DNA of 64,000 bases, taken from contig JAGVTU010000023.1 in the NCBI GenBank assembly GCA_019136655.1, forward strand, positions 1 through 64,000, in the 5' to 3' direction. A program made the position numbers and the translations under genes. This DNA is from Bacteroidota bacterium (GTDB taxonomy: Bacteria; Bacteroidota; Bacteroidia; AKYH767-A; OLB10). Under the pieces are notes generated by a model that saw only the letters and a program-made list of their open reading frames with translations, had not been told where the DNA came from and did no database searches. Below are positions 55,426-58,658 of this stretch, one piece after another. The first letter of the stretch is position 1. Every line of letters begins with the position of its first letter.

Positions 55426-55456
55426 TTTGCTTTTCTGTTTGTAGGTTGTACCTTTG
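55426..55456 (+). promoter_or_regulatory. Consensus Bacteroidota promoter of the oxidase-subunit-III-like gene
   Basis: TTTG (55426-55429), a 19-nt spacer, then TACCTTTG (55449-55456): a full TTTG-N19-TAnnTTTG match. Transcription should start near 55463, giving a leader of about 16 nt. Confidence 0.7.
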
Positions 55457-55478
55457 AAGAGTCGGATTAGTGTAGGCT

Positions 55479-56102
55479 ATGTCAACGGATAAAACCAGGT
55501 CGAAGGAAAGAACCATCAGCATTTCACGGATAGAAAATATTCATCCGTATAAAACCATTTTATTTTTTGGGATCCTTGTGAGTACCTTAATAATGCTCAC
55601 GCTGACATTTCTTTTTCTGACAACTCTTTCTGAGAATAACACCAAACCTCCTTTGCTCCCTAAAGTGTTTACACTTAGTACCATCATGTTGCTGTTCAGC
55701 AGTTATTCCATTTCAAAAACATTAGCAGCTTTCAAAAAAGATTCGTTTGATCTCCTGCTTCAGTCAACTATCACAACTGCAGTTATTTCATCTTTATTCA
55801 TTCTGACACAGATTGTTGGGTTACATTCGCTTTATAAGACAGGCTATTTTCAAAGTATGCCTTTTAATTCATTGTATTTTACCAGTCTTACAGCTTTTCA
55901 TCTTGCACACATCATTATAGTTACCTCTTATCTTATTTACCTTACCTATAAAGCTTATCACCGTTCACATGATATGGTTGATTCGTTGTTGTTTTTTAGT
56001 GACAGTAACATTTTTCAGAAGCTGAACAGCGCAACCATACTTTGCCATTACAATAATTTCAGTTGGTTAGCATTATTTTTGCTTTTCCTTTTTTCATTTT
56101 AA
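55479..56102 (+). CDS. Orphan cytochrome c oxidase subunit III-like protein (five helices)
   Basis: A 207-residue membrane protein with a basic N-terminus and five hydrophobic segments (about 24-50, 64-86, 92-118, 128-157 and 187-207). It resembles heme-copper oxidase subunit III: HPYKTILFFGI at the start, PKVFTLSTIMLLFSSYSISK for the second helix, TQIVGLHSLYKTG, FHLAHIIIV and a final NNFSWLALFL segment. Classical subunit III has seven helices (about 260 residues); the five-helix form is known in bacteria. No subunit I or II is nearby. It has a consensus promoter and is followed without a gap by a YCF48-like lipoprotein gene. Confidence 0.75.
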   Translation: MSTDKTRSKERTISISRIENIHPYKTILFFGILVSTLIMLTLTFLFLTTLSENNTKPPLLPKVFTLSTIMLLFSSYSISKTLAAFKKDSFDLLLQSTITTAVISSLFILTQIVGLHSLYKTGYFQSMPFNSLYFTSLTAFHLAHIIIVTSYLIYLTYKAYHRSHDMVDSLLFFSDSNIFQKLNSATILCHYNNFSWLALFLLFLFSF

Positions 56103-57065
56103 ATGAACCGCTTCACGGTTTTATTTTTCATTGCTCTGTTGTGTTTTTCCTGCAAGAAAGAAAAATTGGATTTACCTTATGAAGTCATTAAAACAGATGC
56201 TTCTGTTGACATTAATAATCTCTATTGTATATCTTCTGACACCATTTATGCCTGTGGCGGTAAACAAGGAAAAGGAATTGTTCTGAAATCTGCTGACGGT
56301 GGCCGGACATGGAATACATTAAGCAATTCATTCAACTATGATCTTTACAGTATCATCATATTTCCCGATGGTTCCGGATTTGCGGGAGCTGATTCATCTT
56401 ATGTATATTCAACAACTGATGGTGGCCTGACCTGGTCACTTTATTTTGACTGGACTGGAATACCATTTCAATATCATTGCCCTCTTCGAAATGTTTACTT
56501 CGCAAATGCCGATACCGGTTTTTTTGCGGGTGGTCATTTTTTTGACAGAGGAATCATTTACTGCACTACCGATGGCGGAGTTCACTGGAATACTCAGGGA
56601 TTTGAGCATGAATTGCGTGCAATTTGCAAAACCGGAGAAGGAATAGTTTCAGCAGGGTATGGTGCATTGCTTACAGCATTTTCATCCACCACTTTCAGTA
56701 TTGTTGATGGTGAAAATGCTTTCTATACAGGATTGACAAGTGTAAATTCAGATAAAGTTTTTGCCTGCTCTTACAACGGAGGGATTTATGAAATGGACGG
56801 AAGAGCAACACTTATACAAATTCATCACAAGCCGAATAATGTTATTTCCTCCCGTGAACACTTTTTGTGTATAGATGCACAAAATGAAAATATCATTGCC
56901 TGTGGCTTATCCGGAATTGTATCTCTGAGTACCAATGCCGGTGAATCTTTTGATACGGGTTATTCACTCAATCAAAATCGAATAAATGCAGTGAAACTGT
57001 TGAATGATTCAATAGCACTGGCTGCAGGTGATGCAGGCCGGTTTTTCAGAATAAGAATAAAATAA
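56103..57065 (+). CDS. YCF48/BNR-repeat lipoprotein
   Basis: A 320-residue protein with a lipobox-like LLCFSC (Cys17), so probably lipid-anchored. It has Asp-box repeats of the photosystem II stability factor YCF48/sortilin type: SADGGRTW, STTDGGLTW, TTDGGVHW and STNAGESF, predicting a beta-propeller. Such domains in non-phototrophs are often scaffolds; YCF48 itself assists assembly of photosystem II. Its start immediately follows the stop of the subunit III-like gene, so the two are co-translated, which hints at a shared role in a membrane complex (inference). Confidence 0.8.
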   Translation: MNRFTVLFFIALLCFSCKKEKLDLPYEVIKTDASVDINNLYCISSDTIYACGGKQGKGIVLKSADGGRTWNTLSNSFNYDLYSIIIFPDGSGFAGADSSYVYSTTDGGLTWSLYFDWTGIPFQYHCPLRNVYFANADTGFFAGGHFFDRGIIYCTTDGGVHWNTQGFEHELRAICKTGEGIVSAGYGALLTAFSSTTFSIVDGENAFYTGLTSVNSDKVFACSYNGGIYEMDGRATLIQIHHKPNNVISSREHFLCIDAQNENIIACGLSGIVSLSTNAGESFDTGYSLNQNRINAVKLLNDSIALAAGDAGRFFRIRIK

Positions 57066-57096: not shown

Positions 57097-58173
57097 CTAT
57101 TCTTCTGCAATCTGCTTTTCAAAACTTAATTTTCCTGCTGTTACCTGATAAGCCAAAAGTTTTCCTTCAGGTGAATAAGTAGTTTCAATATTCACTTTTT
57201 GAAAGGTTACTCGCTTAACTATTCTTCCAAAAAGTGCCAGCACTTTCACTCTTTTTGTGTTTTCAGGCAAATCAATCTCCTGATTCATGGCTAAAGTATT
57301 TAGTCTTTTTACAGCCATTTCTCTCAATATCTCAGATACCTTTTCAGTCTTTTCAGGCTCAACAACTGCCATTGCATTTTCTAAGTTGCCATTAAAAGGT
57401 AAAATGGAAAGTTCTGATTTAGGAACATCAATTTCCGCTTTCAGCACAGCAAGTTCCTGAACATTTTCTAATTTTTCAATACTATGCGTTTCAACAGATA
57501 CAGGTGCCTGCATCTTGTTTCTTACTACTTTCTCTCTCTCTTCTTTAGAATTTGTAACTGCCGATGCCAGATTTTTTTCTGCACTTTTCATGTCCTCATG
57601 AATATTGACCGGCTGTGTATCTGTATTCGTAGTATTAACAGGAATTTCTTTTGTTACATTAACAGGAATTTCTGCAATTTGTGTATCAGGTTGATGATTT
57701 AAATACACAAAAACAACTGCAGTGATACATGCGGCTGCTGAAGCATACCACCATGCGCTGAGTGTTCTCACTTTGCCGGTTTCATGTTTTAACAGATTCT
57801 TATGAGCATACACTACTTTATCTTCTGAAGAGAATTTTGTTTGTGCAAACAAGTCATGTTCTTTTTTGTAAGCCGGGTTCTCCTGAATAAAATCCAGGTA
57901 TGATTGCTTCTGCTCTTCATTCAATGTGCTCTCCAGGTAACCTACTGCAAACTCTTCAAAATTTTCTGCACCAACAATATTTTTTTTCAGGCTCTTTTTA
58001 TTTTCAAATTGCACATCCTGATCGGGCAGTGTAATATTTGAAAAACTGTCGAACTCCAATTTCAGATCACTATTTTCTTCCAAAAACAACAACAGTTCTG
58101 CTGTTTGTTCCGGTGCAAGTTTACCGTCAAAATAATCAATAAACCAAATTTCGTAATTCTCTCTGTTTATCAT
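57097..58173 (-). CDS. Probable anti-sigma factor, single-pass membrane protein
   Basis: A 358-residue protein directly downstream of an ECF sigma factor gene (2-nt gap). The N-terminus is acidic (MINRENYEIWFIDYFDGKL, TAELLLFLEEN), resembling the sigma-binding part of Bacteroidota anti-sigma proteins, with no zinc-finger HCC motif seen. A transmembrane helix lies at about 141-161 (WWYASAAACITAVVFVYL), followed by a periplasmic part with Asn/Thr/Glu-rich linker and a more ordered C-terminus. The topology fits transmembrane control of the sigma factor. The signal it senses is unknown. Confidence 0.75.
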   Translation of the reverse strand: MINRENYEIWFIDYFDGKLAPEQTAELLLFLEENSDLKLEFDSFSNITLPDQDVQFENKKSLKKNIVGAENFEEFAVGYLESTLNEEQKQSYLDFIQENPAYKKEHDLFAQTKFSSEDKVVYAHKNLLKHETGKVRTLSAWWYASAAACITAVVFVYLNHQPDTQIAEIPVNVTKEIPVNTTNTDTQPVNIHEDMKSAEKNLASAVTNSKEEREKVVRNKMQAPVSVETHSIEKLENVQELAVLKAEIDVPKSELSILPFNGNLENAMAVVEPEKTEKVSEILREMAVKRLNTLAMNQEIDLPENTKRVKVLALFGRIVKRVTFQKVNIETTYSPEGKLLAYQVTAGKLSFEKQIAEE

Positions 58174-58175
58174 TT

Positions 58176-58658
58176 CTAAAGTACATTACTCATACTTCCA
58201 ATATATTCTTTTAGTGCCACACGACCGCGATAAATATACACTTTTACCTGTGACTCGCTAAGGCCTGTAATATCACCTATTTCTTTATAATCATACCCCT
58301 CATAATCTCTGAGCAGGATAACCGATTTCTGCACTGCAGAAAGTTTATCAAGTGCCTTGTGCAATATCTGTTTCAAGTCACTGTACTGCCTGTTGTGAGA
58401 TGGCTCATCGTGAAACTCTGTGAGAGTTTCCTGTCGCCCCGATTTACGTAAACTGTCAATCATGGTATGATGTGCTGTGGTGAATAAATAAGATTTTGCT
58501 TTTTCGTAAGTCACATTCTCATGATTCCGCCAGCATTTCTCAAACGTATCCTGAACAACATCTCTGGCATCGTCCTCATCCTTCATATTATGAAGAATAA
58601 AACGGTAAATACCATCTGCATACATATCAACACAAGTATTGTATTCCTTCGCTGTCAC
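58176..58658 (-). CDS. ECF-type RNA polymerase sigma factor
   Basis: A 160-residue sigma-70-family factor, the usual ECF size. Region 2 (about 5-75) contains DEDDARDVVQDTFEKCWRN, the core-binding and -10 recognition segment; region 4 (about 100-150) contains LSAVQKSVILLRDYEGYDYK and a helix-turn-helix with GLSESQVKVYIYRGRVALKE. It is paired with the probable anti-sigma gene downstream. In Porphyromonas gingivalis an ECF factor (SigP) controls T9SS genes; whether this one does is unknown. A Kelch/T9SS gene is divergent at 58854. Confidence 0.92.
   Translation of the reverse strand: MTAKEYNTCVDMYADGIYRFILHNMKDEDDARDVVQDTFEKCWRNHENVTYEKAKSYLFTTAHHTMIDSLRKSGRQETLTEFHDEPSHNRQYSDLKQILHKALDKLSAVQKSVILLRDYEGYDYKEIGDITGLSESQVKVYIYRGRVALKEYIGSMSNVL

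Follow-up and report, generated by a model that had tools for sequence, protein, structure and literature searches.

The locus raises the question of whether a 207-aa membrane protein, encoded immediately before a lipoprotein, is a subunit III of a heme-copper oxidase, and what such a protein might do there. The window, the whole stretch of 64,000 nucleotides that was analysed, is contig C24 of the source genome G000, which has a size of 2.96 Mb and is 99.96% complete. The locus contains the following elements.

55426-55456, forward strand: promoter-like element TTTG-N19-TACCTTTG, read from the sequence
55479-56102, forward strand: CoxIII-family paralogue of 207 aa with five predicted membrane helices, from the open reading frame call and profiles; referred to below as the copy
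55968-55997, forward strand: ten-residue insert HDMVDSLLFF of the copy, residues 164-173, between helices 4 and 5, from sequence comparison
56103-57065, forward strand: lipoprotein of 320 aa with YCF48/BNR-type propeller repeats, from the open reading frame call and profiles
56139-56153, forward strand: end of the lipobox, LCFSC, with Cys17 predicted from the sequence to be lipidated

Both reading frames lie where an earlier note on this DNA had placed them, and the TAA of the copy is followed directly by the ATG of the lipoprotein with no gap. The word "fused" in the title of that note does not apply, as an in-frame stop separates the two genes. The note had also put the pair behind a consensus promoter. 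As sequence the candidate element is there, with TTTG at 55426-55429, then 19 bases, then TACCTTTG at 55449-55456, upstream of the ATG of the copy at 55479, and we take it to be of the Bacteroidota promoter type. An element of this kind precedes the orthologue in three of four genomes of the genus (G000, G001 and G003, not G002), and a looser form is found upstream of the copy in G015 and G019; it is thus not a feature of the whole family. The looser pattern TTTG-N17-23-TANNTTTG, for which chance predicts about 0.008 occurrences per 200 bases on one strand, is not enriched across the window (4 found vs 4.9 expected). Convergent with the pair, at 57097-58658 on the reverse strand, lie a gene for an ECF-like sigma factor of the sigma-70 family and a 358-aa gene that has no match in Pfam.

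Taken alone, the window protein resembles subunit III weakly. It has no match in Pfam COX3, it matches CyoC (TIGR02842) at E=0.002 with 18.5 bits where the cut-off is 223.75, and as a single query it finds the short CoxIII of its own genome at E=5e-7. With a family profile (A1) built from 18 orthologues of the copy the similarity becomes significant. Against the PDB the only chains found below E=0.1 are CoxIII or CyoC, the best at 1e-12; 14 of the 18 family members match Pfam COX3 (PF00510) at E<=0.01, and all 18 match CyoC, which is the best NCBIfam match. The assignment of the 207-aa protein to the CoxIII family, as a paralogue unlinked to the oxidase genes, is well supported by these profile comparisons. 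Two AlphaFold models were made from shallow alignments of 2 and 3 sequences, with mean pLDDT of 57 and 34. The low-confidence model of the copy (mean pLDDT 57) has five long helices, in agreement with the five-helix description given earlier, and its top Foldseek match is CyoC at a non-significant E=0.24, with no match at E<=0.001. Since both models are poor, we base no claim of fold or contact on them.

The source genome carries an ordinary CyoE-CoxIII-CoxIII set, with tandem CoxIII, on contig C9, so the 207-aa protein is an additional copy. Genes on contig C12 we take to be CoxI and CoxII of caa3, and those on C13 are presumably norCB-like. A CoxI-family match at G000:C13:86693-87682 (L087) is interrupted by 8 internal stops, where G001, G002, G003 and G015 have open genes of 483-494 aa; it is probably a decayed oxidase-like gene. 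Sequence comparison makes the copy a paralogue of the short CoxIII with five helices that belongs to the caa3 system (PF00510; G000:C9 158426-158938), with which it shares the profile family and a conserved His/Trp/Gln core. It differs from that protein in lying outside an oxidase operon, in carrying ten additional residues before the last helix, and in having lost the signature of helix 1 and loop 1. Both lack a Glu at the place of helix III that we take to align with the DCCD-binding Glu. CyoC, subunit III of cytochrome bo3, is similar in length to the copy, which differs in having no partner oxidase genes nearby.

How widely is the copy distributed? Among 61 genomes searched, orthologues scoring clearly above the canonical copies are present in 19, all of them among the 24 genomes of the window's family. 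The five family genomes that lack it all belong to genus g5, and all five have CoxI. An order-level search of 42 genomes gave no match at the level of the copy outside the family, and the canonical CoxIII matches there score between 6e-26 and 4e-34. In a sample of the class, which we take to be Bacteroidia, 38 of 395 genomes match at E<=1e-35, 7 in the window's family and 31 outside it, in families f19, f20, f32, f41, f53, f66 and f71; the class-sample counts at this cut-off (38/395 and 27/395) are lower bounds. At two of the f53 loci the gene caller had chosen an antisense reading frame rather than the match.

We placed 41 copies in a tree with 31 canonical short and 9 long CoxIII sequences. 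All but two of the copies (39/41) form one clade (99/97), apart from the 31 canonical short sequences. The two that fall outside the main clade are from f71, yet they carry the ten-residue insert. The 18 intact copies of the window's family form a single clade (99/96, support read from the drawn tree), divided into subclade B with 7 members (100/98) and subclade A with 11 (98/85). The frameshifted copy of G001 was left out of the tree and was assigned to subclade A by its near identity to that of G000. A one-base homopolymer difference, from sequencing error or decay, disrupts this OLB10 copy (G001:C31:39268-39889; L039, L035). The sequence comparison places the copy in an ancient branch of CoxIII that stands alone and spans several families of one class. 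The suggestion of a "repurposed" subunit III agrees with such a clade, separate and unlinked, with an insert of its own.

The span from helix 4 to helix 5 is 29-30 residues in 41/41 paralogues and 19-22 residues in 31/31 canonical short CoxIII proteins, a set drawn mostly from the window's family (21 rows). By this comparison the insert is diagnostic of the paralogue family. The distribution of charges favours an N-in topology, which would place it in the cytoplasm. The copy family has kept the core residues of subunit III, namely P61, F64, F107, Q111, H141, H144 and W196, and has lost residues that are near-invariant in canonical helix 1 and loop 1, the first outer loop. For the H-x2-H motif and the C-terminal YWHFxDxxW, the window protein retains H141, H144, H190 and W196, with W189 replaced by C and D193 by N; in most other members from the window's family YWHFxDxxW is complete.

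Comparison of G000 with G003 gives dN 0.153, dS 2.06 and dN/dS ~0.074 for the copy, and dN 0.232, dS 2.16 and dN/dS ~0.107 for the lipoprotein, and because dS lies above 2, near saturation, the ratios are rough. No dS was obtained for the copy between G000 and G002. By this measure of codon change, both the copy and the lipoprotein are maintained by purifying selection.

If the copy acts on an oxidase, which one might it be? No match to CoxI, CoxII or CcoN was found near the copy at 19 loci of the family and 23 outside it; as a positive control, the same search matched CyoE at locus G030. The earlier description of a protein without subunits I and II is therefore right locally. The canonical CoxIII of G000 is likewise on a contig other than that of caa3 CoxI (C9 vs C12), which makes the non-linkage of the copy a weak test of caa3 function. 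In G004 a caa3-type gene is the sole CoxI-family match, so that among heme-copper oxidases caa3 alone is left as a widely shared candidate. G005, G006 and G009 have a caa3-size gene together with a cbb3-size gene of ~710 aa and no NorB-size match. Some copy-bearing genomes of the family lack the cbb3-size gene, some the NorB-size genes and some the CoxI-like gene of 566 aa found on C2, and each of these was therefore rejected as a general partner. Across the class sample a CoxI match at 1e-90 is present in 37 of 38 copy-bearing genomes and in 331 of 357 without a detected copy; with CoxI this widespread in the class, its co-occurrence with the copy proves nothing.

NorE is a CoxIII-like protein and, like the copy, is encoded outside an oxidase operon. 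A NorE-like role for the copy, as an accessory to nitric oxide reductase, would accord with the presumed norCB-like genes on C13 and with a review which, in the part available, states that norE may lie away from norCB or may be missing (PMC8139620). Against it, the copy is present in genomes lacking NorB-size CoxI-family matches (G004, G005, G006 and G009), and we regard such a role as very improbable.

The reading we prefer makes the copy a partner of the caa3 oxidase, either accessory or substitute, that was later joined by the propeller lipoprotein in one subclade. We hold this tentatively, at a probability of about 0.4. The copy would help to assemble or stabilise the caa3 oxidase, or alternatively would be a substitute subunit III that alters the docking or the protection of the oxidase. 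Published work on oxidases makes such a role plausible by analogy. In the portions of PMC8361435 available, a five-helix subunit III forms the contact in the structure of the Flavobacterium johnsoniae ACIII-oxidase complex, and many oxidases undergo turnover inactivation once subunit III is removed; the available portion of PMC8552683 is silent on subunit III. Counted in favour of the caa3 role are the profile match to CoxIII, the separate clade, the insert (in 41/41 paralogues and 0/31 canonical proteins), the dN/dS values, the standing of caa3 as the widely shared candidate, CoxI in 37/38 genomes, the fast evolution of the copy in G015, the adjacency of the pair in 11/12 genomes, and the five-helix contact in F. 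johnsoniae (PMC8361435, as far as available). Counted against it are an intact pair in G015 in the absence of caa3, the five CoxI-bearing family genomes that have no copy, the lack of CoxI or CoxII nearby, the lost residues of helix 1 and loop 1, and the replacement of W189 and D193.

The genome of G015 (99% complete; L230-L232) bears on this directly. PF00510 finds no match in it, nor is there a CoxI match of caa3 size near 1e-135, and its main aerobic oxidase has likely been lost naturally; it retains what we take to be CcoN/CcoO-like, NorB-like and other CoxI genes. A PF00510 match occurs in 49 of 50 copy-bearing genomes, a tally that counts the copy itself (in G367 it is the sole match) and is therefore informative for G015 alone, the only genome with none. 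Without caa3 and canonical CoxIII, G015 still keeps an intact copy and lipoprotein, the copy lacking H144 and H190. That copy evolves 2.7x as fast as in the sister genome G008; the corresponding ratios of G015 to G008 are 1.5x and 2.0x for two flanking genes and 0.73x for the lipoprotein. This can be read either as constraint lost after the loss of the oxidase or as a copy that can do without one, and one genome cannot decide.

The copy may instead work with no heme-copper oxidase, its fold serving as a membrane scaffold in its own right, for example for binding lipid or protein, and in the window's family together with the lipoprotein. Retention by G015, the absence of linkage to oxidase genes at the 19 family and 23 outside loci, the loss of the helix 1 and loop 1 signature and the gain of a conserved insert would all suit a scaffold. 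Against it stand the retained core (P61, F64, F107, Q111, H141, H144, W196) and the copy of G015, which is the fastest-evolving, as expected after loss of a partner. We consider the scaffold rather unlikely, and favour the accessory or substitute role on caa3 over it. We give still less credence to the fuller scheme in which the subunit III fold works alone in the inner membrane outside oxidases in several families of the class, with the cytoplasmic insert as a new contact site, one lineage having gained a periplasmic lipoprotein partner and the protein being kept despite the loss of caa3.

The lipoprotein next to the copy had been described as a propeller of the YCF48 type, and this is borne out by the presence of a lipobox and by similarity to YCF48/BNR profiles over the whole length. 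Of 13 aligned relatives, 12 have the lipobox Cys; it is missing from the G001 row. With the family profile, cyanobacterial Ycf48 is found at 4e-17 to 7e-17 (8am5_S at E=6.9e-17 over profile positions 3-311), and the window lipoprotein scores below the Ycf48 equivalog cut-off (34.9 vs 326 bits). Ycf48/HCF136 is an assembly factor of photosystem II, and the likeness to it is that of a lipoprotein with the same propeller-type repeats. In the part of PMC10403576 available, Ycf48 binds D1 through six Arg residues. In the profile alignment one of the six is kept, the R180 position corresponding to R172 of the lipoprotein, and the positions of R196, R215, R219, R220 and R237 are not Arg. The repeat type is thus common to both proteins and the D1-binding patch is not, and on this alignment family membership lends no support to the idea of a YCF48-like helper.

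In subclade A the lipoprotein lies directly downstream of the copy in 11 of 12 genomes, G010 having no lipoprotein, so the pair is conserved beyond the source genome. With the profile similarity to subunit III described above, neither of the outcomes that the earlier note gave as refuting its idea is seen. The stop-to-start spacing is -4 to +7 bases in the 10 subclade A genomes with intact genes, and the pair is kept though flanking genes differ, in G005 on both sides. In the 7 genomes of subclade B the copy is surrounded by different genes, with no such lipoprotein immediately next to it, and there is no full-length lipoprotein match elsewhere at E<=1e-10. In genus g2 of subclade B (G017, G019 and G013; L048, L050, L052) a BNR-repeat protein of 760-780 aa, of a sort common in g2 genomes, is encoded two genes downstream of the copy. 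Similar lipoproteins are found in 20 sampled genomes of other families, and outside the window's family no neighbourhood contains both genes (19/20 lipoprotein and 23/31 copy neighbourhoods examined). Since the copy is found without the lipoprotein in the sister subclade, and either gene without its neighbour at the outside loci examined, the pairing is a conserved arrangement of one subclade and is not obligate. In several families (L088, L215, L217, L224, L226) and at several subclade A loci the lipoprotein gene is convergent with a likely outer-membrane protein gene. This neighbour (families F15/F8, function guessed) is spread more widely than the copy.

The adjacency may reflect a shared transcript and nothing further, the two proteins having unrelated roles. 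This is a serious possibility, a little short of our preferred reading. Neither gene needs the other, and relatives of the lipoprotein outside the family adjoin other genes, such as the convergent outer-membrane protein gene; the near-zero spacing kept while the flanks of subclade A differ counts against unrelated roles. Alternatively, the pair could be a dedicated two-part helper for assembling a respiratory complex, with the lipoprotein binding somewhat as Ycf48 binds D1, a proposal that overlaps the caa3 reading. The tight start-stop coupling in the subclade A genomes, including G005 with both flanks different, and the YCF48 profile similarity would accord with a helper pair. In most lineages each gene occurs without the other, 5/6 Arg-patch positions differ, and the two genes have unequal relative rates in G015, and we judge it improbable. 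Beyond adjacency and fold type we found no support for a pair acting in this style, and nothing that ties the lipoprotein to a respiratory complex.

Under the preferred caa3 reading, the copy of the one subclade would be translationally coupled to the propeller lipoprotein, observed as its neighbour, which might perhaps bind on the periplasmic side to the same complex or to an assembly intermediate. LpqE is a lipoprotein of mycobacteria. The available part of PMC8523172 describes it as a removable extra subunit of the mycobacterial CIII2CIV2 oxidase supercomplex. It would be a precedent for a lipoprotein bound in an oxidase supercomplex, by analogy and not by comparison of sequences.

Subunit III is normally treated as a part of the oxidase without independent life. 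The insert provides a simple marker with which to find and name the branch described here. An unlinked branch under selection, with an insert of its own, would point either to a hidden assembly factor or substitute subunit of the main aerobic oxidase, or to reuse of the fold. Subunit III mediates the contact between ACIII and the oxidase in this phylum, according to the part of PMC8361435 available, and a second version of it could alter the make-up of the supercomplex.
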